From: a virus
Virus record (IMG/VR): IMGVR_UViG_3300042893_001931
Span: 1 to 21,669 of that record
Length of the DNA stretch: 21,669 nt
Direction: 5' to 3' (one strand)
This document shows positions 1 to 20,105 of this stretch, piece by piece. A program made the position numbers and the translations under genes. Each line of letters starts with the position of its first letter. The first letter of the stretch is position 1. The notes beneath the pieces were generated by a model. That model saw only the letters and a list, made by a program, of their open reading frames with translations. It was not told the origin of the DNA and made no database searches.

Positions 1-799
1 TAACATTTGCAAGATTATTTATATTCTCATCTTGCCATGCGTAATACTCATCACCGTTTTCATCATATAAAACACCATAAATCCAACTGGATACCGTTCT
101 AGGATACATACCACATTTACCATCCGATACAAAAAATATCTTATTGAATTTTCTCTTCCACCACGATAAAAAATCTCTAACAAAGTCATTTCTTTGAGAA
201 TCGTCAGAGGATAGGGTTTTAAATCTGCTAGTATCACCAACATTTTTACATCCCATTCTTTTTATCTTCTTAGTTTTTATTTCATCACCAGTTACTTTGT
301 CTTTTTCACCAGTTGGTATATATGTTCCATCAGTGACTGCAAATGTTTTACTATCAACTTTTCCACCACCTGCAACCCATTTCACATATTCAGCACCTTT
401 ATCAAAATAAGCGTTTTTAAGAGCATTTGACGTTTTGTATTTTGATGGAGCTTTGTCAATCGACAACTTACCCATCTTTGTTTTATCTCCATAATCAGGA
501 AATTTTGATAATAACCAAGCTCTAAACGCATCACTCTCTGAAGTTTTTGTAAATGGTAATTTTACTTCACTATAAGATTTTACGTCTTTTTTTTCTTTTT
601 CAGTTTCAACTGGTTTTGGGGTCGGTGGAGTTGCAGATGCAATATAACCATAAAAAAAGGTTTCAACATTTTGAAACTTTCCGTTTGGGTCACTTTGTTT
701 CTTTTTTTTCCACTCAGCTTGTGTTAATGACTTGTATCCCTCTTTTTTATATTTAGCAATAAGCTTTTCTTGTGCTGGGGTTTGTTCTAATATAATCAT
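1..799 (-). CDS. partial large protein with a DAFRxW domain, unknown function
   Basis: The frame is open from an ATG at 799 to the window edge (266 codons, C-terminus missing). The protein begins MIILEQTPAQEKLIAKYKKE, followed by a Pro/Lys/Glu-rich stretch and then a segment around residues 78-140 (TSESDAFRAWLLSKFPDYGD) that resembles residues about 187-240 of the protein at 2284-4488, so the two share a domain. Further on it has a Lys-rich region and aromatic residues (WKRKFNKIFFVSDGKCGMYP). The start lies 3 bases after the stop of the upstream gene at 803, so it is translated as part of the same unit. The N-terminus resembles the leader segments seen elsewhere in the window only weakly. A virion-associated or ejected protein is a guess from context; no enzyme family was recognised. 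Confidence 0.8.
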   Translation of the reverse strand, partial: MIILEQTPAQEKLIAKYKKEGYKSLTQAEWKKKKQSDPNGKFQNVETFFYGYIASATPPTPKPVETEKEKKDVKSYSEVKLPFTKTSESDAFRAWLLSKFPDYGDKTKMGKLSIDKAPSKYKTSNALKNAYFDKGAEYVKWVAGGGKVDSKTFAVTDGTYIPTGEKDKVTGDEIKTKKIKRMGCKNVGDTSRFKTLSSDDSQRNDFVRDFLSWWKRKFNKIFFVSDGKCGMYPRTVSSWIYGVLYDENGDEYYAWQDENINNLANV

Positions 800-802
800 A
801 TG

Positions 803-2251
803 TTATGTAACTATAATTTTACCATCTGTTAATTTGGCAGTACCTGTTAATCCACTGGCATCAGTATACGCATATTCTGTTTTATTTTCTTCATCAGGTG
901 TTAATGTTATAGGTTCAGTATATCCATTATTCTTAATAGCTTCAATTGCTTTAGCCTTAGTCATTGTTGTAAGAGTAGTATCTTTCGCAGATTTAACCCC
1001 ACCAATTTCTTCAACTGTCTTATCCGCAAGTTTTGCGTCTCCACAATTAATTTGAATTTCCTCACCTATAGCATTCTTTTTAGAAAGATAAAACGCACCT
1101 TCTTTTTGTTTAACTGACTCTAAATTTCCGTCATAAACTACTTTAGCGTAATATTCATCAAAACCGTCATCAGAACCCATAGTTTGGACGTGGTCAACAG
1201 TTATTTTGTTGTTTGGACAAGAAGTAATTAAACCCTTTAAAAGGTTTTCCGCTTCCTCTTTAGTTTTACTAAAATAATCTAACCCAACATAACTGGCAAT
1301 AATCACTCCAATAGTTAATACTGTCAAAGCCGCCTTTACTGGCTTAGTAAGATTAAGTTTTGGTAGAAAACTATTAAAAAAGTCCCATTTTTGTTTTATT
1401 TCTTGTCTCCCCACCTCATTTGATTCACTATAAATTTTCTTTAGTTTTGTTTGTGATTCCGCCAATTTTGTTTCTAATTGTGTTATATCTAAATTTTTAT
1501 ATTGATTAATAAAATTTTTCGCCTTTGTTTGTAAAACCGTAGGGTCAACCTTTAGATTGGTTGCCAAATCGTTTACAATTATTTTTGTATCTTCTGATAA
1601 CTCACCGAACTCATCCAATAATCCTGTAAATTCTTTAGTAACTGTAGTGGTAGTAACTTTTGTAACGTCTTGAACTACATCTGGAACAAAATTTGGTGCA
1701 TTTATAATATCTTTTCTATTTTTGTAATTTACCCATAATAATACTAATAACTCATCTTTGACTTCCTGTGACTCACCCAAATTATCAATTTTAATATAAT
1801 ATTCATCATACAATTCATCTAATTTAATTTCATCATTAGCACTTGCAAATTTATTTGGGGATGATATCTCAGCCGACAACTTTTTAAGAGTTGGATTTGT
1901 ATTAATAAATGCGTTAGCCATTTTTTGACTAACTTCTTGATTTGTTGACTTTACAAGTTTCTCAGCGATGGTAGAGGCTAGTTCATCAGATAAATTACCT
2001 GTTCTAATATCACTTAATATATCGTCAATAGTTTTACCTCCAGGTAATTGAGCAATTTCATCAAAACTATTTTTAAGCGATTTTGCAATATCAGTAGAAC
2101 CATTTTTAACCAAATCTTCAAAGTCATCGGCACTTTTACCAAAAAGAGTTAAAAACTCATCAATAATACCACCACCAACGGATTCTTTTAAAAGTGGTAA
2201 TCCTAAAATTTCTCTAAATCTATTTATCTCATATAAAATTTCTTTTTCCAT
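803..2251 (-). CDS. putative virion-associated protein with leader and one membrane segment
   Basis: 482 residues. The N-terminus (ILYEINRFREILGLPLLKES) is an amphipathic leader like that of the PPK2-lysozyme protein, with an L-x-E tripeptide at 21-23. The next 280 residues are mostly helical, polar and Asp/Glu/Lys-rich, with a Thr run near 200 and a probable coiled region at 255-290. One hydrophobic segment lies at about 306-324. The region after it contains two cysteines (C345, C403) and ends in two short beta-rich segments around 365-405 and 420-482, the last with an AKAIEAIKNNGYTEP motif reminiscent of small periplasmic or PepSY-like repeats. The gene is followed after 3 bases by the partial gene at 1-799. 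An internal or ejection protein is inferred; the family is not recognised. Confidence 0.82.
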   Translation of the reverse strand: MEKEILYEINRFREILGLPLLKESVGGGIIDEFLTLFGKSADDFEDLVKNGSTDIAKSLKNSFDEIAQLPGGKTIDDILSDIRTGNLSDELASTIAEKLVKSTNQEVSQKMANAFINTNPTLKKLSAEISSPNKFASANDEIKLDELYDEYYIKIDNLGESQEVKDELLVLLWVNYKNRKDIINAPNFVPDVVQDVTKVTTTTVTKEFTGLLDEFGELSEDTKIIVNDLATNLKVDPTVLQTKAKNFINQYKNLDITQLETKLAESQTKLKKIYSESNEVGRQEIKQKWDFFNSFLPKLNLTKPVKAALTVLTIGVIIASYVGLDYFSKTKEEAENLLKGLITSCPNNKITVDHVQTMGSDDGFDEYYAKVVYDGNLESVKQKEGAFYLSKKNAIGEEIQINCGDAKLADKTVEEIGGVKSAKDTTLTTMTKAKAIEAIKNNGYTEPITLTPDEENKTEYAYTDASGLTGTAKLTDGKIIVT

Positions 2252-2270
2252 AACAATTGTTTTTTTTTAT

Positions 2271-2279
2271 TATAAATAT
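2271..2279 (-). promoter_or_regulatory. ATATTTATA motif upstream of the 803-2251 gene
   Basis: In the direction of the gene the sequence reads ATATTTATA and ends 19 bases before the ATG at 2251. It is one of about fourteen similarly placed copies in the window; promoter or leader function is inferred. Confidence 0.4.
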
Positions 2280-2283
2280 AGGG

Positions 2284-4488
2284 TTATTTGATAACGGGTT
2301 CATCTAATACAATTAATTCTATCTCAGTGTTAGATTCTTCTACTTTTTTAACAGATTCTTCCATTATTTTACGCATTTCTTTGATTAATTCTTCTGCCGA
2401 TTTTTTTCTATCTTCTTCGTTTTTTATTGTTTCAGTATAATATTGTTTTTGTATTGATTGTTGAATTTTAGGATTTGAAACTAACTCATCCAAATCTTTA
2501 TCACTTAAATTATTTAATGAATTAACAAATTCGGTTCTGTCATCACCATTTAAAAATGATAGAGCCATCGCCCAAATTTCTTGTTCTTCCTGAGTTAATC
2601 CTTTCTTACCTCTATTTTTTAATATTTCATCTATTTTATTTACTTGTTTAACTAAATAAACACCAGCAGGTGCACCATAAACTAAAATATTAATTAAAGG
2701 ATTAGATATCTTTCGGCCTATTGGTGCTTTAGCAGTTTTATTAAGACCATCCACCACATCTTTACTTGCCTTTTGAACCACATCTTTATATTCTTCAGTA
2801 CCAAGTTCTTTAATAACTCTTTGTTCCTGAGGTGTCATATTTTTTAACAAGTCATCAACTTGTGTTTTGGTCGCATTAGGTGGTAATGATTTTAATTGCG
2901 ATTCAACAGATTCAATGACTTCATCACCAAATTTTGCGGATTTTAACGCAGCTCTGACAGGACCTGACGCCATTAATAAAGGTAAAAAGACATACGCCAA
3001 GTCCAGTTTAATTGCATCATCATCTTGTGCTTCAACACTTTTACTTAAAGAATATAAATTAAGTGCCGTATCGGCGGCCAACTCAAGAAATATTGCTGCA
3101 GAAGGTCCTAAACCTAAACCACCTGATAATATTGAAATTGCTACCATACCTCCTAATTGAATATATACTCCGTAGTCCCTCCAAAACGGAGTTACACAAG
3201 GTATTTTTGGTGAATTCCATTTTGCCATATAGGATTGTCCTTTAGAATTTCTATAATATTTTCCAACAATGTCACCACTTTTATTTTTCTTTGTTCCATT
3301 AATTATTTCTTCAAAAAATGATAAAACACCTTCTTCATCACAATTTTCAAGTGCGTAATCAATTGCTTCTTTAGTAAATAATTGATTAATTAATGGACTA
3401 TTATTAATTGTTGTAATTAATTCATCCTTTTTTTTATTTTCTTGTTGTAATTCGTATAAATCAATTAATTCTTCTAAAACTTCGTATTTAGTTTTTCCCT
3501 GTATATATACTTTTATTTTTGTTTTCGGTTCAGTCCAATAATTAAATTTATAACCTCCATAATCACCTGTCGTTTTATTATATTGTGTTAATGGTAACTC
3601 ATTTGGGAAATTTGAGAAATCAAAAACATTATCCATATATTGCTGTGCAAGTTCTGATATTTTACCAGTAATTTTTATGTTTGTCATCCCATTTGATTTA
3701 TCTTTGACAATACCTGACACGGCATTTTGTTGAGATTTTACATTAAGATAAACATCATAAACTTTTTTACCTTTAGACATACCTTCTTTAAATGTCGCAT
3801 TTGCAACCTTATTAATATAAGAATTACAAAATGCTCCACTTCTATCTAATTGATTTTTTTGAGCTAACTTTGGGTAAGAATTATTAAACCACTCTCTAAA
3901 CGCATCTCCTTCAGTTTTATTATTAAAAAAACATCCTGAAGCAACTGCATTTTGTTTTGTTTTTTTTTGTTGAGCGGACGCTCTTTGTTTTTGAAGTTCA
4001 TCTAATAATTGACCTGATGTTTTTCCAAATAAATTTTTTCTTTGGGGGGGGATATCAGGGATTAACGTTGACTGAGGCCCTGTTGGTTTAATACCTGCGT
4101 TCAATCCTTTAGATTTTCTATTCTCGTAATTTTTGAGAGATTTTACGTAAATATCATTTTCCAAAACTATGGATGCTGGTGTAGGATTTGGTTTATTAAA
4201 TCCTTGTAAACCAAAATCAGGACTTATTGCCCCATACCCTGCATCTGAAAATCCTTTTTGTATTTTCATTAAATCAGGTAAAGTAGTTGCCTTTAATCCA
4301 TTTAAATAAGTTTCCCACTCAGGACCTGAAAATGTATTATTTTTAGATAAGTTTAAACCTTGTTGTAAAATAGTCGGCCAAGTATATTGTTCAGTTATTA
4401 ACTGAGTATTTTCATTCAATGTCTTTGACGAGTCATATTTCATCATCAACAAAACTCTTTCTAATATTTCTTTTTGATTATTATTCAT
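2284..4488 (-). CDS. large putative virion internal/ejection protein with hydrophobic segments
   Basis: 734 residues from the ATG at 4488; a TTG at 4497 would add three residues, but the ATG sits 2 bases after the upstream stop and is preferred. The N-terminus (ILERVLLMMKYDSSKTLNEN) is a leader with L-N-E at 24-26. Residues about 187-240 carry CFFNNKTEGDAFREWFNNSYP, matching the DAFRxW segment in the neighbour at 1-799. Residues about 305-345 are Tyr-rich and beta-like. Gly/Ala-rich hydrophobic segments lie at about 441-480, 495-515 and 596-615, and the C-terminus is Glu/Lys-rich. This build (leader, small domain, membrane-active middle, charged tail) fits a protein ejected with DNA, but no family was recognised and the role is inference. 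Confidence 0.83.
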   Translation of the reverse strand: MNNNQKEILERVLLMMKYDSSKTLNENTQLITEQYTWPTILQQGLNLSKNNTFSGPEWETYLNGLKATTLPDLMKIQKGFSDAGYGAISPDFGLQGFNKPNPTPASIVLENDIYVKSLKNYENRKSKGLNAGIKPTGPQSTLIPDIPPQRKNLFGKTSGQLLDELQKQRASAQQKKTKQNAVASGCFFNNKTEGDAFREWFNNSYPKLAQKNQLDRSGAFCNSYINKVANATFKEGMSKGKKVYDVYLNVKSQQNAVSGIVKDKSNGMTNIKITGKISELAQQYMDNVFDFSNFPNELPLTQYNKTTGDYGGYKFNYWTEPKTKIKVYIQGKTKYEVLEELIDLYELQQENKKKDELITTINNSPLINQLFTKEAIDYALENCDEEGVLSFFEEIINGTKKNKSGDIVGKYYRNSKGQSYMAKWNSPKIPCVTPFWRDYGVYIQLGGMVAISILSGGLGLGPSAAIFLELAADTALNLYSLSKSVEAQDDDAIKLDLAYVFLPLLMASGPVRAALKSAKFGDEVIESVESQLKSLPPNATKTQVDDLLKNMTPQEQRVIKELGTEEYKDVVQKASKDVVDGLNKTAKAPIGRKISNPLINILVYGAPAGVYLVKQVNKIDEILKNRGKKGLTQEEQEIWAMALSFLNGDDRTEFVNSLNNLSDKDLDELVSNPKIQQSIQKQYYTETIKNEEDRKKSAEELIKEMRKIMEESVKKVEESNTEIELIVLDEPVIK

Positions 4489-5124: not shown

Positions 5125-5592
5125 TTAAATGATTTTCTTGAACCACTTAAGTGATTCATTGATTTGTTCTTGTACTAAATAAGCCTTTGATTTTACTTTA
5201 ATACCTTCTTCAATTTCTTCCATAGAATATGATTTAGTTGCACACTGTTCACATTGTTCACCCTCTTTTATTCCACCACCACACTGCTCACACATTTCAC
5301 CTTCTTTCATGGATGAACATTGTTCACACATATCACCTTCATATAATCCAGTACATTGTTCACAAACTTTTTTAAGTTTTTGATTAATATTGGTGTTTCT
5401 ATATTCGGTTACATCACCTTTATTATTAACGGTAATTCCTTTTTCATCTAACGCCAAATTTTCAACATTAAGGATTTGTTCTTTTGGTGTGTTAAATCCA
5501 CGAGTAACATATCCATCATATTGACTTCTGTGTTTATCTTGTATTGATTCTTTTTCTTCTTTAGTAATATTCAAAAAAAATGCGTTTCTCAT
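5125..5592 (-). CDS. CEQC-repeat protein (putative zinc knuckles)
   Basis: 155 residues. The N-terminus (FFLNITKEEKESIQDKHRSQ) resembles the ITESEKQRILxMH leader found in other proteins here, though no [L/I]-x-E follows at the usual distance. The middle holds four copies of CEQC at 77-80, 89-92, 101-104 and 114-117, spaced 12, 12 and 13 residues and separated by short (M/I)KEGE-type loops. Paired CxxC motifs commonly bind zinc, so two small knuckles or a stacked metal-binding rod are possible. The C-terminus is a helix (AYLVQEQINESLKWFKKII). The following gene starts 4 bases downstream. Function unknown; metal binding is inference from the motif. Confidence 0.8.
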   Translation of the reverse strand: MRNAFFLNITKEEKESIQDKHRSQYDGYVTRGFNTPKEQILNVENLALDEKGITVNNKGDVTEYRNTNINQKLKKVCEQCTGLYEGDMCEQCSSMKEGEMCEQCGGGIKEGEQCEQCATKSYSMEEIEEGIKVKSKAYLVQEQINESLKWFKKII

Positions 5593-7013: not shown

Positions 7014-7634
7014 ATGAAATATATAATTAAAGAATCTCAAAAGCAAATTATCCTTGAAGCAATAAATGATAGGATTAAAGAAGTTCAAGAAGATGGTGTT
7101 GAACTAACTAAAAAGATTGTTGAAGACACTAAATCACATGCTTCAATAAACTTAAAGATGATGCTTACATGGGGTGCCGCAATTGGAGGGTTTATGGGTC
7201 CAATTATGCAATGGTTAAATGGACAAGTACCAGAGTTAACAGAAAAAGATTCATCATTGATTGCTGCCGGTATTGCGTCAGTAATATTCTTCCAAGAAAG
7301 AAGTTTTACCAAATCAATTATTAAAAAGATTAAAGAAGACGGACTTGAAGAACCATTTAAATTGGGAGCAATTAAAGCTAATCAACTTAAAACTGTTTTG
7401 GTAGGTTTTTTAAAGAGTTTGAATTTATCAGCATTCAGTGTGACAAATATGTTAAGTTATGCATTCTTGGTTCCAATTATACCAATGATATATGACGCTG
7501 TCTCTGAAGGTATATGGGATATAAAAGATACTGAAATGTTGGTTAAATCATTATCGGCATTTGGATTAATAACAATTTCAGGTAATTTCTTAAAACGACT
7601 TATGGATTTAATCGTTGATAGAATTACTAAATAA
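7014..7634 (+). CDS. multi-pass membrane protein with leader
   Basis: 206 residues. The N-terminus MKYIIKESQKQIILEAINDR follows the leader pattern of the window, with I-L-E at 13-15 and I-K-E at 21-23. Hydrophobic segments lie at about 50-67, 80-94, 126-160 (long enough for a hairpin) and 178-195, separated by Lys/Glu-rich loops. It is one of the very few plus-strand genes bearing a leader, and is preceded by the palindromic ATATTTATAAATAT. A holin or virion membrane component is possible, but there is no lysis gene beside it, so this is only a guess. Its end overlaps the convergent cupin gene by 8 bases. Confidence 0.82.
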   Translation: MKYIIKESQKQIILEAINDRIKEVQEDGVELTKKIVEDTKSHASINLKMMLTWGAAIGGFMGPIMQWLNGQVPELTEKDSSLIAAGIASVIFFQERSFTKSIIKKIKEDGLEEPFKLGAIKANQLKTVLVGFLKSLNLSAFSVTNMLSYAFLVPIIPMIYDAVSEGIWDIKDTEMLVKSLSAFGLITISGNFLKRLMDLIVDRITK

Positions 7635-7894: not shown

Positions 7895-8494
7895 TTACCA
7901 AAATCCTGGATAAGTTTTACCGCCCCAGAGGTAACCAAAGCGATTGAGTCTACATGCCCAGTACCCCGCAGTTAATCTATCTTTCTTTTTAGAACACTGA
8001 TGTCTTGCAGCGAATGATTTACGAGCTTTAGGGTTAGATACCTTAGCAGTTAAACCACCTTTAACATCACCAAATGAAATCTTTTTAACTCTACCTGTTG
8101 ATGGGTTCTTTACATAAACAACATATTTCTTTCCACCACCACTATTTCTTCTTGGTTTACCAAGTTCAACTTTTTTTCCGTTATGTTCTGCCTCAGAAAT
8201 AAATTCTTCTTCCATAGGAGTATCCAAGTAAATAACTCTACCACTTGATAATCTAACCTGTGTTCCAAAATCAGATTCAATAAGTTCAACATCATCTTCA
8301 TTTAATTCAACCATTCCTTCGTAATATAACTCACGAGCTTCGTTAATAACATTAAAGAACTCTTCTGAACCAAATCTGAAGATATTATCATTCAAGGGAA
8401 CTTCATTTGTTATATGATAATTAAGGTGTTCTGAAATAAGTGGTTTTTCCACCGATTCTGTAAGAACTTTTTTGATAAGTTTTTTGATATTCAT
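7895..8494 (-). CDS. leader protein with C-terminal DUF5872-like domain
   Basis: 199 residues. The N-terminus (MNIKKLIKKVLTESVEKPL) is leader-like, with L-T-E at 11-13 and I-S-E at 20-22. Residues 30-105 are acidic. From about 106 the chain becomes basic: KKYVVYVKNPSTGRVKKISF, FGDVKGGLTAK, then NPKARKSFAARHQCSKKK and YWACRL. This matches the DUF5872 pattern seen in phage proteins, with conserved His165, Cys167 and Cys181 that could hold a metal. The start overlaps the upstream membrane-protein gene by 4 bases (ATGA), and the cupin gene follows after 1 base. Its function is unknown; a basic C-terminal domain suggests nucleic acid or capsid contact. Confidence 0.82.
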   Translation of the reverse strand: MNIKKLIKKVLTESVEKPLISEHLNYHITNEVPLNDNIFRFGSEEFFNVINEARELYYEGMVELNEDDVELIESDFGTQVRLSSGRVIYLDTPMEEEFISEAEHNGKKVELGKPRRNSGGGKKYVVYVKNPSTGRVKKISFGDVKGGLTAKVSNPKARKSFAARHQCSKKKDRLTAGYWACRLNRFGYLWGGKTYPGFW

Positions 8495-9273: not shown

Positions 9274-10173
9274 TTAGATAGTTTGAATCCTTATATAATC
9301 ATTTGTAGAAAATACCCGTTCCATATCTTCGTTACCATCAACAAATACAGTACATTTCGCAGATACACCTGGAAAACCATTTATACGATAAAAACTTGTA
9401 GGCTTTAAACCACTACAAAAAGCATTCATAGCTTGATTTGAATTCGGGTTATCAAAGAAATTCTTTGAGGCTTGACTGTAATCAGAGTCCATAAAATTAC
9501 CTCCTGAATAATCCCCTTTAACTTTAGGATGAATGTGCCTATTCACTCTATCGTCAGGACATCCTGGTGTTCCTCTTTCATTAAGTATTTTATTAAATAA
9601 ATTCCATGGTAATGGTTTAACAACGTAATTAGAAGAATCATTACCTGCCTTAAATGTGTATACCCAACCGGTAGGATTATTTTTATCTTTTTTACCTGTC
9701 CATTTTGGTTCAGAACAATGTTCCCCTTCCACAACAGTAATACCTTTGTCTGATAATAATTTTTGATACGCCTCTTTTTTAACTACAAGCATTCCTGGAT
9801 AATTTCCACCCACGTCACTCATTATCTCATATTTACCCACACCATAAACTTTATCACCAGTTTGTTTGGCAATTTCTTCTATATTACGACTTTGTTTTTG
9901 AGGAACCTCAACGACTTTAACACCACCATTAAGTGTTTTTATACCTAAATTAGATAAGTCAGGACTTTGAGTTATAGTTTGTGTTGTACCAGTAGGTTGA
10001 GTTGTCGCTTGTGTTGTCGATTGTGTTGTCGCTTGTGTTGTCGATTGTGTTGTAGGTTGTGTTGTCGCTTGTGTTGTGTCTAGTTCACTTAAATAATTTC
10101 TCTTGGTGGCACTTACGTGCATTTCCAATATTCTCTGTTTTTCTTCTGAAGAAATTTCAAATAGGTTTTTCAT
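9274..10173 (-). CDS. leader protein with TTQ repeats and Cys-containing C-terminal domain
   Basis: 299 residues. The N-terminus is a leader (ISSEEKQRILEMHVSATKR) very similar to that of the gene at 18051-18662, ending in L-S-E at 28-30. Directly after it come seven tetrapeptides TTQ[A/S/P] (33-60), then TGTTQTITQS, a likely flexible linker. The C-terminal 220 residues contain EGEHCSEPKWTGKKDKNNPT, GTPGCPDD, NRHIHPKV and several Asn/Tyr/Phe-rich segments, with four cysteines (in EHCSEP, TPGCPDD, AFCSGL and AKCTVF). The repeat of nearly identical 12-base units has kept the frame. The layout (leader, stalk, domain) suggests a packaged or displayed protein. Family not recognised. Confidence 0.84.
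   Translation of the reverse strand: MKNLFEISSEEKQRILEMHVSATKRNYLSELDTTQATTQPTTQSTTQATTQSTTQATTQPTGTTQTITQSPDLSNLGIKTLNGGVKVVEVPQKQSRNIEEIAKQTGDKVYGVGKYEIMSDVGGNYPGMLVVKKEAYQKLLSDKGITVVEGEHCSEPKWTGKKDKNNPTGWVYTFKAGNDSSNYVVKPLPWNLFNKILNERGTPGCPDDRVNRHIHPKVKGDYSGGNFMDSDYSQASKNFFDNPNSNQAMNAFCSGLKPTSFYRINGFPGVSAKCTVFVDGNEDMERVFSTNDYIRIQTI
9994..10077 (-). repeat. seven 12-bp units encoding TTQ[A/S/P]
   Basis: Seven tandem 12-base units, each reading as Thr-Thr-Gln plus Ala, Ser or Pro, inside the gene at 9274-10173. Because the unit is a multiple of three, copy-number change would alter linker length without a frameshift. Confidence 0.88.
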
Positions 10174-12577: not shown

Positions 12578-13276
12578 ATGAAAGAATTATTAAATAACCC
12601 TGAAACTATAAAAAATTTTAAACTTTTACATTATATCCTATTAAGTAATGGTCTTACTCGTGTCAGTAATGACTTTTATGTTGATTACTACGGAAATGTT
12701 GATTATCACTTCTCACCTTGGACTAATAAAGGTGGAGCTTATGATATTATACCTAATAAATTATTTGATTTTTTAGATAATTTTTTTGATTCTATTAAAG
12801 ATGAAGTTTTAGATTCATTAGAAGGTGATGGTGATTCTAGAGCAACGGTGTCATGTGAGTATTCAACAACAGACAAAACTTTAATAATTGAAGAAAATAT
12901 TCAAACTATGGGTTATGAATCGTATTACCAAGAGTTTGAAATTGACGAAAAGGAATTACTTGAGGATATGGTTCAGTGGAAAGAAGATGGTAAACTTAAA
13001 ATTAGAGTTAATTTTAGCGGTGGTGGTGATTCAGGTTATATTGATGACGTTGGTCTAATCAATGATACTGATGACAAACATTATGAATTTACAGCGGTTT
13101 GGGAAAGTAAGTTATACAACATTTTGGAACAAAATCATGGTGGATGGGAAATAAATGAAGGTTCTGAGGGAACGTTCATAATTGATAATGAAAACCAAAT
13201 TATAGAACTAGATTTTCGTATGAATGTTGAAGAATCTTCAACAGGTTACGAATTTAAACACCAATTTGAGTTTTAA
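12578..13276 (+). CDS. acidic hypothetical protein with SGGGDSGYIDD motif
   Basis: 232 residues from ATG at 12578; an in-frame TTG at 12563 adds five residues and overlaps the previous gene, so the ATG is preferred. The sequence is strongly acidic, with VNFSGGGDSGYIDDV and LEQNHGGWEINEGSEGTF. The combination G-x-G-D-S-G ... H-x-G-W-E-x-N ... G-T-x-x-x-D recurs in phage and bacterial proteins of unknown function. Its stop overlaps the stop of the convergent gene at 13273 by 4 bases. Confidence 0.8.
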   Translation: MKELLNNPETIKNFKLLHYILLSNGLTRVSNDFYVDYYGNVDYHFSPWTNKGGAYDIIPNKLFDFLDNFFDSIKDEVLDSLEGDGDSRATVSCEYSTTDKTLIIEENIQTMGYESYYQEFEIDEKELLEDMVQWKEDGKLKIRVNFSGGGDSGYIDDVGLINDTDDKHYEFTAVWESKLYNILEQNHGGWEINEGSEGTFIIDNENQIIELDFRMNVEESSTGYEFKHQFEF

Positions 13277-13590
13277 TAAACCTGAATAGTTCTTTGTGGT
13301 CTGTCATCACCAAAGTCAGGACAGAAATAAACATTGTTACCATCGTGGTAAATTGTTCCACCAACTCCATTAGGAATTTTGTGTTTTTCATGGAATTTTT
13401 CACCCAAATCTATTTGGTGATTACCATCTTTGATAATAAAACATAAGTTTTCAAAATCACACTTATATTGTTGGTCCTTGTTTTTATGTTTCATAAACTC
13501 GTCAAAAGACATTACATATCTCGCATCTTCGTTAAGGTATCTTTTAACGATAAATTCTAATTGGTTTTCTGTGATAATAAACTTTTTCAT
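13273..13590 (-). CDS. leader protein, hypothetical
   Basis: 105 residues. The N-terminus MKKFIITENQLEFIVKRYLN with L-N-E at 19-21 is a clear leader. The remainder is polar, with GNHQIDLGEKFHEKHKIPNG and a short C-terminal beta part ending FCPDFGDDRPQRTIQVY; three cysteines. It has its own ATATTTATA motif 4 bases upstream and lies 18 bases downstream of the PPK2-lysozyme stop. No family recognised. Confidence 0.8.
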   Translation of the reverse strand: MKKFIITENQLEFIVKRYLNEDARYVMSFDEFMKHKNKDQQYKCDFENLCFIIKDGNHQIDLGEKFHEKHKIPNGVGGTIYHDGNNVYFCPDFGDDRPQRTIQVY

Positions 13591-13608: not shown

Positions 13609-15396
13609 TTAAGAATAAATTCCTTGACTATAAATTTTCCATTCTTTTTCTCTTCTGTCAGGGTGAGAAAAATCTAAAAAGTTAACTTTAACTGAGTTAG
13701 AATTTGGATTAATTTTTAAAGAACTACTTAATTTCGGAGCCTTTGTCGTACAACCCGCAAATCCAACTTGATAACATAATGATGATAATGCGTCAACTTG
13801 TTTTTGATTCAAATTAGGATATATTGATAATAACTTACTTGCCAATTTATTTAAAGTTGTTTTTAAATATACTTTAGCCTTATCTTTTGTTATTGATGGG
13901 TCTTTAGGTGTTACTTTTCTACCATCAGGGTAATAAACGGTACCATAACCAATTGTTGGAGTTCCTGATGCGGTTCTACCTTTTAAACAACAATCAGATT
14001 CTCCTCTAATACATTTACCACCTTTAGCATCATCATAAACACAAGGAACAAAAAACTCAATATTACCTACAAAATCTACAAGTTTATCTGAAACACCTGT
14101 AGGTTTTGGATTGTTTTTTTTATTTTTTTCAGATACCGCACTTGCCGCTTTTTCAAGTCCCGTTTTAATTGTTTTATTTATATCACTAACAACACCTCCT
14201 GATGCTGGTTTCATTTGGTCTTTTGGTTGTCCCATAGAAGACCATTTATCCATAAAATTGGGTTCTTTATTTGACTTGTTAAAACCCATAGTTTTATTAA
14301 TGTCATCAAAAACTGATTGTTCATTAATATTTGGTTTTAATACAGTCATTGCTTCAGGAAAATCCTTATTTAAAACATCCTCATCTTTATTTGTGTAAGG
14401 AATATTTTGCAAAACGTATCTAATAGAGTTTAGACCTGAAATCTTTTTATCGTTAGAATCCAAAACAACCCACGGATGATTCACTGTAGATGTCTTATCA
14501 AAAAGTTTTTGTTTATATTCTGTAAACTTTTCCCACACATCTTGCATCTTCTCATCATTCTCAGAATACTTCCAATATTTCAATGGTGACTTCTGTCTGA
14601 AATCAAATCTCTTAGCTTGAGTTTCTTTATCTATTGAGAACCAAAGTTTAAATAAGTAATCCCCATCAACAACCAATGATTCTTCAAAATCCTGAACATT
14701 ATCCATAAAGTCTTCGTACTCTTCTGACGAACCATAACCCATTACAGGTTCAACTAATCCTCTATTGTACCAACTTCTATCAAAGAAGTTTATCTTACCT
14801 TTTTCAATTTGATTACTGTATCTATCCCACCAGTTCTTTCTTTCATCAGGTGTTGGGATACCAAGAGCAATAACTTTATAATATCTTGGATTTAAATTTT
14901 CAGTGAATTTCTTAATTGTAGAACCTTTACCTGCCGAGTCTCTTCCTTCAAAAACAATAATAACAGTTTTACCTGTTTGTTTTAACCATTCCTGTAGTTT
15001 TAATAATTCAACTTGAAGGAAAAATAATTCTTTCTTATAAATGTCTTTATCTAAAATTGACGGTTCCTCTTCGGGACTAACAACTTCTTTTTTATTTTTT
15101 CTTTTCTCTAATGATTTAGTAAGTTGTTTAAAAAATTCAAAAACATGAATATCTTTACTACCTTTTAATTTTAAAGTTTTTTCAATACCTCTTGTAAGTA
15201 AACTAAAATCAACTAAACCTTGTTTAGAATATTCTTCAATCTTATTAATAAATTTTTGGATTTGAGCACTATAAACTTTATTGTCTTTTAAAAATTCAAT
15301 AAGTGATTTTACCTCAGGGCTATATTTTGGCTTATCTGCCTCTTGTAAACCCATCATGTTTTTCATCTTACTAACTTCAGTCAATAAATTCCTCAT
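13609..15396 (-). CDS. PPK2 (polyphosphate kinase 2) fused to a GH24 lysozyme, with leader
   Basis: 595 residues. The leader is LLTEVSKMKNMMGLQEA (4-20), L-Q-E at 17-19. Residues about 118-335 are a PPK2 domain: KELFFLQVELLKLQEWLKQT, Walker A GRDSAGKGS (151-159, Lys157), NPRYYKVIALGIPTPDE, NFFDRSWYNRGLVEPVMGYG (203-222), KLWFSI and SPLKYWKYSENDEKMQDVW. PPK2 enzymes move phosphate between polyphosphate and nucleotides. A polar linker (340-435) leads to a GH24 muramidase (about 437-595): Glu447, Asp455/456, Thr481 in PTIGYGTVYYPDG, and QKQVDALSSLCYQVGF. The Glu-Asp-Thr order is that of T4 lysozyme, but the loop between Asp and Thr has a Cys-containing insertion (KCIRGESDCC). The chain is continuous, with no stop or shift. 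An injected protein that both opens peptidoglycan and supplies nucleotides is one reading; it is inference. Confidence 0.92.
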   Translation of the reverse strand: MRNLLTEVSKMKNMMGLQEADKPKYSPEVKSLIEFLKDNKVYSAQIQKFINKIEEYSKQGLVDFSLLTRGIEKTLKLKGSKDIHVFEFFKQLTKSLEKRKNKKEVVSPEEEPSILDKDIYKKELFFLQVELLKLQEWLKQTGKTVIIVFEGRDSAGKGSTIKKFTENLNPRYYKVIALGIPTPDERKNWWDRYSNQIEKGKINFFDRSWYNRGLVEPVMGYGSSEEYEDFMDNVQDFEESLVVDGDYLFKLWFSIDKETQAKRFDFRQKSPLKYWKYSENDEKMQDVWEKFTEYKQKLFDKTSTVNHPWVVLDSNDKKISGLNSIRYVLQNIPYTNKDEDVLNKDFPEAMTVLKPNINEQSVFDDINKTMGFNKSNKEPNFMDKWSSMGQPKDQMKPASGGVVSDINKTIKTGLEKAASAVSEKNKKNNPKPTGVSDKLVDFVGNIEFFVPCVYDDAKGGKCIRGESDCCLKGRTASGTPTIGYGTVYYPDGRKVTPKDPSITKDKAKVYLKTTLNKLASKLLSIYPNLNQKQVDALSSLCYQVGFAGCTTKAPKLSSSLKINPNSNSVKVNFLDFSHPDRREKEWKIYSQGIYS

Positions 15397-16695: not shown

Positions 16696-17112
16696 TTAAC
16701 GTCTTCTAATGTGTCTTCTGATACTCTCAGCCATTGGGTCCATTGGTGCTTCATCTTCCGTATCCATATTATCTACTTCAACCTCAGAATCCATTTCTTC
16801 ACCTGAATCCATTTGATTACTTTCATAATTACTGATGATAGATTTAAGTTCCATAGCTTCTTGTTCTTTTCCTTCAGTTTTTCTTAATTCTCTGTATAAA
16901 TCTTTAAGATAATCCCATCCAGCAATACCTAAAAGTCCAATAGTTGTTCCAACCATTGTTACGATAGCACCACCAGTACTCATAGCTTCAGGATTAAAGA
17001 AGTTTTGAAGCTCTTCGTTAACACCATTTCTTTTATTTCTTTTTGTTTCTTTAACTACTGTTTTAATTAAGTTAGTTAATTCTGATTCTGATAATCTTAC
17101 AACTTTTTTCAT
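16696..17112 (-). CDS. leader protein with single membrane segment
   Basis: 138 residues. The N-terminus MKKVVRLSESELTNLIKTVV is almost the same as that of the gene at 19806 (MKKIIRLTESDLTQIIKRVI), although the remainders are unrelated; V-K-E at 20-22 is the position of [L/I]-x-E in relatives. A hydrophobic segment lies at about 47-66 (GAIVTMVGTTIGLLGIAGW). The C-terminal half is acidic (EEMDSEVEVDNMDTEDEAP) and ends in a basic RRHIRRR. It has an ATATTTATA motif 46 bases before its start. No family recognised. Confidence 0.83.
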   Translation of the reverse strand: MKKVVRLSESELTNLIKTVVKETKRNKRNGVNEELQNFFNPEAMSTGGAIVTMVGTTIGLLGIAGWDYLKDLYRELRKTEGKEQEAMELKSIISNYESNQMDSGEEMDSEVEVDNMDTEDEAPMDPMAESIRRHIRRR

Positions 17113-18050: not shown

Positions 18051-18662
18051 TTAAGGGTTAATTCCTCCGTCGCCTATAACCTTACTTACCTTATTTAATC
18101 CACTATTAATCGTTTTAGTTGCTCTAGTTTTAAAATTTCCTTTACAACCAGCAGGAAGTGAAGTATAACCACTATATTCACCACACGTAAATTCAAACCC
18201 ACCTTTCTTAGGGTCACCCTTGTCACCACCATAAGCTTTTTCCGCGGAATTACATAATCCGCTTAAATGTTTATTAATAGGGTTTACATAGTATGGAACA
18301 TCGATAGCGCCAAATGTATCCTCACCTCTAAACATACGTTTAACTGCGAAAGCAGTAACATCACAATAATTATCTTGGACATTCTCCCTAATATTATGTA
18401 ATATTGTAATATACAAGTCAACAGTTTTAATACCATAAACTAAGTTAGCAATTGCCTCTTCATCAACCGTTCCAGCTAAACCAGCCTTTTCAGCTGCGGT
18501 AACTCCATCAATGAATCTCCAAGCAGCATCATTATTTTGTTGTAGTATTCTATCCAAAGTTTGGTTTCCAGTACTCTCAAGTAAGTTTAATTTTTTTGCT
18601 GCGGTTTTGTGCATTCCCAAAATTCTTTGTTTTTCCGATTCTGTTATAACTAATCTTTTCAT
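18051..18662 (-). CDS. leader protein of unknown function
   Basis: 203 residues. The N-terminus VITESEKQRILGMHKTAAKK (5-24) and L-L-E at 27-29 match the leader of the gene at 9274 most closely. The body is helical (TLDRILQQNNDAAWRFIDGV, TVDLYITILHNIRENVQDNY), followed by a Gly/Lys-rich part with three cysteines (CDVTAFAVK, GLCNSAEK, FTCGEYSG) and a basic C-terminus (KTRATKTINSGLNKVSK). Its own ATATTTATA motif lies 23 bases upstream. A packaged protein is inferred from the leader; the fold was not recognised. Confidence 0.82.
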   Translation of the reverse strand: MKRLVITESEKQRILGMHKTAAKKLNLLESTGNQTLDRILQQNNDAAWRFIDGVTAAEKAGLAGTVDEEAIANLVYGIKTVDLYITILHNIRENVQDNYCDVTAFAVKRMFRGEDTFGAIDVPYYVNPINKHLSGLCNSAEKAYGGDKGDPKKGGFEFTCGEYSGYTSLPAGCKGNFKTRATKTINSGLNKVSKVIGDGGINP

Positions 18663-19805: not shown

Positions 19806-20105
19806 TTAACCTTTAGCGCAACTTTGTGTTCCAGTACATGTGTAATTTTTTCCATTAAAAATAAACTTAATGTATTTACCTGATGTAGGAACTGCATTAG
19901 TTACTTCAATATTCCCATAATTATGGTCAGTAATTTTAGTTGTATATCCACTTTTTAGTGTTACTTTTCTTTCGTTACCTTTTATTGTAATTTTTATTGC
20001 ACTATCTCCTTGTGTTGGACTGTTAGAAGACGTTTGTTGTTCTTTAATAACTCTTTTAATAATTTGAGTTAAATCTGATTCAGTTAATCTAATAATTTTT
20101 TTCAT
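19806..20105 (-). CDS. leader protein with small C-terminal beta domain
   Basis: 99 residues. The leader MKKIIRLTESDLTQIIKRVI with I-K-E at 20-22 is followed by a Ser/Thr/Gln linker (QQTSSNSPTQGDS) and a basic beta-rich domain of about 60 residues with two cysteines (NYTCTGTQSCAKG). The leader is close to that of the gene at 16696. ATATTTATA lies 13 bases upstream. No family recognised. Confidence 0.82.
   Translation of the reverse strand: MKKIIRLTESDLTQIIKRVIKEQQTSSNSPTQGDSAIKITIKGNERKVTLKSGYTTKITDHNYGNIEVTNAVPTSGKYIKFIFNGKNYTCTGTQSCAKG

Follow-up and report, generated by a model that had tools for sequence, protein, structure and literature searches.

The IMG/VR virus record IMGVR_UViG_3300042893_001931 was analysed in full, as a window of 21,669 bases that corresponds to the complete virus record and has a G+C content of ~26–34%. 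Two large proteins encoded near its left end, a 734-residue protein and the product of the gene truncated by the left edge, share a segment of ~60 residues that we call the FRxW domain. That this segment is one mobile domain is well supported by the sequence comparisons described here. We consider it probable that the domain is a mainly helical module that binds the envelope of Bacteroidota-type hosts, most likely at peptidoglycan, which would act as a wall anchor in the manner of endolysin binding domains. It is apparently an unnamed protein module, as no name for the family was found in Pfam, PHROGs or PDB searches or in the literature searched.

The initial annotation had noted the same pattern in both proteins, and direct comparison of the two bears this out. 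A BLASTP alignment of copy against copy showed 15 identical residues in 55 columns, with an expectation value (E) of 3e-6 for one single comparison, and hhalign aligned the two families with a probability of 96.5 and an E of 8.8e-10. Over ~60 residues the consensus in both proteins is roughly PFKNxxEGNxFRxWVNxxYPxxAKxxxLDxxGSxxNSYIxKAWxxxGxxY, and homologs of each protein retain the segment. Both copies were also retrieved by a profile of 30 outside segments, none of them from either window family and most of them collected using the motif itself: among the open reading frames (ORFs) of the window, the 734-residue protein scored 65.9 bits (E 5e-21) and the left-edge protein 21.3 bits (E 4e-7), the next ORF following at an E of 0.33. 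The best scores obtained from 2000 shuffles of each protein were 13.1 and 14.1 bits, respectively. With a hidden Markov model (HMM) whose profile takes in its own family, the 734-residue copy reached a domain E of 4e-32. A profile search of the PDB gave no convincing match (best E 0.47, dismissed). Once the domain was masked the two proteins fell into separate clusters, in agreement with their description as otherwise different, whereas the Lys/Gly-rich end attributed to the pattern is not conserved across the family. The outside profile found no FRxW domain in the 482-residue protein encoded between the two carriers.

The left-edge copy is divergent and has a longer central loop. When 13 motif residues were masked, the 734-residue copy retained 21 bits (E 4e-7), whereas the left-edge copy gave no significant score, being recognisable chiefly through its first helix. 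This result, together with a pLDDT (predicted local distance difference test) score of only 66 for its structural model, is what one would expect if a single amphipathic helix had matched by chance or by convergence, in which case the two window proteins would have no domain in common. We consider such a coincidence highly improbable in view of the family-level hhalign E of 9e-10 and of the behaviour of the homologs. The left-edge homolog L086:9189-11114, which outside the domain shows 29% identity across 195 columns, kept an E of 4e-6 after masking and the L012 homolog one of 1e-4, while those of L004 and L011 gave about 0.01–0.03 (E for 100 sequences throughout). In addition, the left-edge cluster passes the leave-cluster-out test described below, and the complete 572-residue form of the protein matches the Bacteroidota protein L262 across the left-edge domain (E 4e-4, the database holding only 8 sequences). 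Since the left-edge copy fails the masked test while its homologs score, we regard it as a divergent member that is linked to the family through them.

At E <= 1e-3, the domain was found in 109 ORF sequences, including fragments and near-duplicates, which formed 37 clusters after the domain had been masked. A stricter test was applied in which the motif was masked, the profile was built without the tested cluster and only the second half of the domain, which had played no part in finding the sequences, was scored. In this test 32 of the 37 clusters, both window families included, kept E <= 1e-3 (for 109 sequences); L206, L228, L213, L011 and L210:8191-9621 failed it and are still inside the count of 109 sequences and 37 clusters. 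Tandem copies are present in L009/L010, L048 and L064, and the left-edge homologs of L012 and L004 have two copies each, the second of L004 being weak (E 0.05). No FRxW copy was found by HMM in the 734-residue homologs of L011 and L012, the neighbouring gene of L012 having two. The occurrence of the domain in so many dissimilar proteins, its tandem copies and its apparent absence from these two homologs give good support to the initial suggestion of a mobile or duplicated domain. The pattern scans were noisy. Profile matches in any of six frames were obtained for 56 of 62 (L046–L107), 3 of 62 (L120–L181) and 43 of 80 (L182–L261) pattern-scan stretches; because the motif alone carries a large share of the score, such counts are inflated for motif-found stretches, and the masked test was therefore applied. 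The locus list leaves out L056 (a chance match) and the duplicates L001, L023, L051, L059, L067, L081, L090, L094, L097, L101 and L106; the domain list leaves out L056, L001, the window and repeated segments.

In 52 aligned copies, the F, R and W of FRxW are invariant and the P of YP is conserved in at least 90%, the alignment having been gathered partly via that motif. AlphaFold2, supplied with the 52-sequence alignment, returned a confident four-helix model of the 734-residue copy (positions 3712-3948; pLDDT 91.5, predicted TM-score (pTM) 0.81), with helices at residues 11-24, 26-31, 43-50 and 63-78 of the model. The model of the left-edge copy (positions 314-580; pLDDT 66.4, pTM 0.56) has helices at 13-26, 28-34 and 52-70. 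With regard to the possibility of two unrelated folds, raised at the outset, the first helices follow the same order in both models and do not contradict a shared domain, but the left-edge model lacks the confidence needed to establish that the folds agree. A search of BFVD returned one likely relative, the uncharacterized phage protein A0A6J5L6E4 (E 0.05, probability 0.97, 33% identity). Most of the 75 non-redundant copies (64) lack cysteine; 3 have one and 8 have two, compared with 14.7 copies with one and 1.9 with two expected under independence, if relatedness is ignored. Cysteines that come pairwise are the pattern that a disulfide outside the cytoplasm would give, a hint of an extracytoplasmic location. 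One cysteine pair is common to the 734-residue family and both L009 copies, and pairs occur elsewhere in L012/L004, L086, L103 and L265.

In relatives, the domain has partners that suggest the cell wall. Pfam detected CHAP in all three scanned members (L158, L162, L185) of a 7-member cluster, and the five members viewed are 231-238 residues long and have the FRxW domain at their C-terminal end. Likewise, L060 contains Amidase_2 (phrog_822 amidase, E 7e-46) and the FRxW domain occupies residues 162-219 of its 219. Further Pfam matches were to M23 in L254 (two stretches), to M23 and NlpC/P60 in L183, of which the FRxW match is weak, to a TseH-like domain in L072, to LysM in L221 and to PG_binding_1 at residues 40-104 of L199, where it is a domain separate from FRxW. 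A YkuD match in L048 (5e-4) was below the cut-off, and matches to GH19 in L249 (0.006) and PG_binding_1 in L170 (0.04) are mere hints. In such proteins the FRxW domain would hold the adjoining catalytic domains (CHAP, amidase, M23, NlpC/P60 or YkuD-like) at the wall. The endolysin-like layout, modular and with the domain C-terminal to a peptidoglycan hydrolase, was found in relatives only, as CHAP–FRxW and Amidase_2–FRxW; the Pfam scan found no hydrolase domain in the two window carriers or their L002, L009 and L026 relatives, and the Pfam and PHROGs matches of the window carriers themselves were weak. A by-eye reading of four proteins (L035, L058, L187 and L214) as L,D-transpeptidase-like was not borne out by Pfam, which gave no YkuD match in any of them, and PDB sequence searches returned nothing for the C-terminal part of L214 or for the CHAP protein L158. 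A PHROGs match in L049 labelled endolysin/peptidase (273-329) lies outside the FRxW domain and was not used. As a separate observation, L049:798-2501 and L095:474-3200 have the FRxW domain in a SET-domain protein (PF00856, 8e-7 in the Pfam scan of L049).

The domain also occurs in cellular genomes. A first scan of bacterial genome contigs confirmed no carrier; a pattern scan of bacterial genomes gave 8 stretches, 7 of them with a confirmed ORF, L269 (Desulfovibrio) being unconfirmed. The confirmed cases are 7 proteins at 6 loci (L262–L266 and L268) of Bacteroidota metagenome-assembled genomes (MAGs), of which L262, L264 and L268 are close relatives, and a short ORF in a MAG labelled Alphaproteobacteria. 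The FRxW domain lies at or near the C-terminus of these Bacteroidota envelope-type proteins; by eye, N-termini are hydrophobic or lipoprotein-like in all five for which the N-terminus was seen. Of 8 genome proteins scanned with Pfam, 4 have a YkuD match short of the cut-off and 2 match SPOR, one of these above the cut-off. The genes around the Bacteroidota carriers, which by eye we take to encode an amino-acid permease (four loci), GTP cyclohydrolase, FabD and biotin carboxylase, read as housekeeping genes, so the carriers do not appear to lie in prophages. Such carriers are rare: of 395 phylum-drawn genomes one was positive, and in two families the figures were 2 of 5 and 2 of 52. Every positive was a previously found carrier genome.

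The initial annotation had proposed binding to either the cell wall or the capsid. Since the domain ends CHAP and Amidase_2 proteins and occurs in Bacteroidota proteins, where no capsid is involved, the wall is favoured and the capsid is the weaker half of that proposal, although attachment to the virion may still occur in some settings. A related but doubtful alternative is that the partner to which FRxW docks its carriers is a phage component (the capsid, baseplate or portal), so that the enzymes carrying it would be virion-bound. Phage carriers in which Pfam recognises no enzyme (among them L203, L244 and, in its C-terminal part, L220), the C-terminal FRxW domain of the L104/L069 family, a tape-measure match overlapping the domain in L026 and the frequency of N-terminal tags among carriers (both described below) would fit docking; the short CHAP and Amidase_2 proteins that end in FRxW would not, nor would Bacteroidota carriers that lie among housekeeping-like neighbours and have YkuD-like and SPOR matches. 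It is also unlikely, in our judgement, that FRxW itself has no wall ligand and instead mediates general protein–protein contacts or self-association in envelope and virion proteins, or is attached to hydrolases in a regulatory role. PDB structure searches found no match to a known wall-binding fold, and the known wall binders LysM, PG_binding_1 and SPOR co-occur with FRxW and could do the binding; in the CHAP and Amidase_2 proteins, however, FRxW is the Pfam-unassigned C-terminal part, the usual place of a binding domain.

Besides the failure of the masked left-edge copy, several observations weigh against peptidoglycan anchoring by the domain. A cell-wall domain at E <= 1e-3 was seen in 7 of the 37 clusters (28 of the 37 having a scanned member), most contexts being without one, and in many large phage proteins FRxW is not accompanied by any recognised domain. 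Among 50 control ORFs from the same loci, PG_binding_1 was present in 2 and Amidase_2 in 2, among 25 of 58 families listed. Enrichment of cell-wall domains over neighbouring ORFs was not demonstrated, and the case for the wall depends on which partner domains occur and where they lie. The L026 homolog of the 734-residue protein has a TMP_2 (tape measure) match at 220-264 (E 2e-5, below the cut-off) that overlaps the end of FRxW, and the 734-residue protein itself has one at 665-723 (E 0.22); the match of L026 is taken as helical low complexity and would favour a structural role if real. Moreover, PDB structure searches gave no convincing fold match (Foldseek best E 2.7; VIA Z 2.2), the cysteine counts take no account of relatedness, and the binding is a prediction. 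Peptidoglycan anchoring is nevertheless the reading that we prefer.

The features of the two carriers and of the gene between them are collected in Table 1. The complete left-edge gene encodes 572 residues at L002:9569-11287, where the ORF is identical over all 266 residues. Both carriers are identical in one IMG/VR contig (L002/L023), homologs of the 734-residue protein are found in L002–L010 and L026, and relatives reach 240 kb. The 240-kb relative, G009, encodes terminase, portal, head maturation protease, major head protein and tail sheath, and from its gene content the window is apparently a piece of a large, T4-like phage. The hydrophobic stretches of the 734-residue protein suggest possible membrane contact; a homologous region is present in L009, L011, L012 and L086. 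Beyond the window, the C-terminal half of the left-edge protein (from ESLENKITGKLKLMKENKSLSES...LGGLSEQ onward in L002:9569-11287) is the best-conserved part compared with L004, L012 and L086 and by eye has several LxE-like sites, perhaps protease sites.

Table 1. Positions of the FRxW carriers, their parts and the intervening gene in the window
Feature	Position	Strand	Basis	Remarks
734-residue protein	2284-4488	-	ORF	Order: tag-like N-terminus, FRxW domain, hydrophobic stretches, C-terminal part
Tag-like N-terminus of 734-residue protein	4387-4488	-	About residues 5-35 alone match in L013-L022	MNNNQKEILERVLLMMKYDSSKTLNEN...
FRxW domain copy, 734-residue protein	3739-3936	-	HMM match	Residues 185-250; has GCFFNNKTEGDAFREWFNNSYPKLAQKNQLDRSGAFCNSYINKVA...
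Hydrophobic stretches, 734-residue protein	2935-3171	-	Hydropathy, 19-residue maximum 1.67	Residues 440-481 and 495-518
482-residue protein	803-2251	-	ORF	Between the two FRxW carriers; tag-like N-terminus MEKEILYEINRFREILGLPLLKE
Left-edge gene	2-799	-	ORF	Truncated by window edge; 266 residues inside
FRxW domain copy, left-edge protein	about 356-562	-	HMM match	About residues 80-148; has KLPFTKTSESDAFRAWLLSKFPDYGDK...

The N-termini of the 734- and 482-residue proteins resemble the capsid-targeting sequences of T4. The 734-residue protein begins NQKEILERVLLMMKYDSSKTLNEN, and only that stretch matches in ten loci, some of them from near-identical contigs. The tags contain (L/I)xE, the T4 head-protease consensus. 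Tag-like N-termini are found in 30 of the 224 ORFs of G009, and 28 of these ORFs lie within the first 40 kb; when the MKYLITE type is left out, 17 of 224 ORFs are tagged, compared with 0 of 1179 internal 45-mers. The head maturation protease of G009 (L111:6499-7215; phrog_207, E 1e-43) is presumably of the T4 type, and the major head protein has an (L/I)xE site, LINE-A, near residue 60, ahead of the part that matches the PHROGs model. Among the 10 window proteins scanned, no head maturation protease was identified. Tags are commoner in FRxW carriers (9 of 32 phage clusters) than in neighbouring ORFs (48 of 518; p 0.003), as judged with regular expressions written after the tags had been seen. 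An N-terminal (L/I)xE peptide is thus common to otherwise different proteins, as in T4-type tags; the observation is one of peptide sharing, not of cleavage. A PHROGs match to 'internal head protein' (E 0.16 in 1 of 20 copies) was not used.

From these tags and the head protease of G009 we infer that the 734- and 482-residue proteins may be packaged in the phage head and contact the wall during entry. Starting with their (L/I)xE peptides, the two proteins would be packaged in the prohead, cut by the head maturation protease and, once trimmed, leave the head together with the DNA; the FRxW domain would grip the wall, and the hydrophobic stretch of the 734-residue protein would touch the membrane. 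As a tentative extension, large T4-like Bacteroidota phages might load their heads with many tagged proteins, a subset of them with FRxW anchors or hydrolases (including a polyphosphate kinase–lysozyme fusion encoded in the window). The ejected cargo would assemble at the peptidoglycan and let the DNA through, and the anchor might have been borrowed from, or lent to, host YkuD-like envelope proteins. If the domain is a wall anchor, a recurring unannotated module of phages and a few Bacteroidota envelope proteins would have been named, many 'hypothetical' phage proteins could be read as cell-wall-directed and new binding domains would be at hand for lysins against Gram-negative Bacteroidota. 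It would also provide a testable link between head-packaged proteins and wall crossing.

Other, differing window proteins also begin with short tag-like peptides by eye: those at 5125-5592, 7895-8494, 9274-10173, 13273-13590, 16696-17112, 18051-18662 and 19806-20105 (all on the minus strand) and at 7014-7634 (plus strand). Their tags are of the types RLTESDLxxIIKRVIKE, SEEKQRILxMHxxAxK and MKYII..., many ending (L/I)xE-like by eye, and similar tagged proteins cluster in the first 40 kb of G009. The fusion, a 595-residue protein (13609-15396, minus strand) with a tag-like N-terminus, is an odd pairing of polyphosphate kinase 2 (PF03976, 5e-71) and phage lysozyme (PF00959, 2e-10); G009 has an equally long ORF with a very similar N-terminus (L109:8908-10695). 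The protein at 5125-5592 (minus strand) contains Cys-rich repeats (EQCxxxxEGExCEQC) and gave weak EGF and zinc-ribbon matches. By eye, L035, L058 and L072 have another small module without a name (about YDYKKEGxxYxxKxKxSxxWxxxxG), placed after the N-terminal tag and ahead of the FRxW domain.

Comparison with named phages by tblastn gave no match for either full protein, nor for the canonical copy of the domain at E <= 0.1; haloarchaeal phage matches (E >= 1) were not accepted as relatives. A string search of the literature found the tag nowhere and the motif only in one snake-venom paper. Bacteroidetes-infecting freshwater phages carry a terminase, prohead protease and capsid block, according to PMC9723584, and no such domain was seen in passages of PMC12596118 or in other literature listed on the subject.

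Among known systems, the cell-wall-binding domains of endolysins are small, mobile and sometimes duplicated, as is FRxW, which in relatives is C-terminal beside CHAP or Amidase_2; unlike them, FRxW matches no Pfam binding-domain model in the proteins scanned, and the window carriers are without a recognised catalytic domain. PG_binding_1 (PF01471) is likewise a small helical domain, with a somewhat similar order of helix, D..G loop and helix by eye. It differs in that FRxW segments have no Pfam match, L199 has PG_binding_1 separately and no convincing structural match was found; its profile gave no match at E <= 1 when the window carriers and their L002, L009 and L026 relatives were scanned. 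The Bacteroidota YkuD-like/SPOR envelope-type proteins (L262–L266 and L268) share the domain, which in them is C-terminal or nearly so, but, unlike the window carriers, are cellular and rare. Finally, compared with the internal head proteins of T4 and their capsid-targeting sequence, the window tags differ in sequence and are mostly longer than the T4 consensus. They resemble them, however, in consisting of a short N-terminal (L/I)xE peptide and in belonging to a group of phages in which a relative, G009, encodes a head maturation protease.

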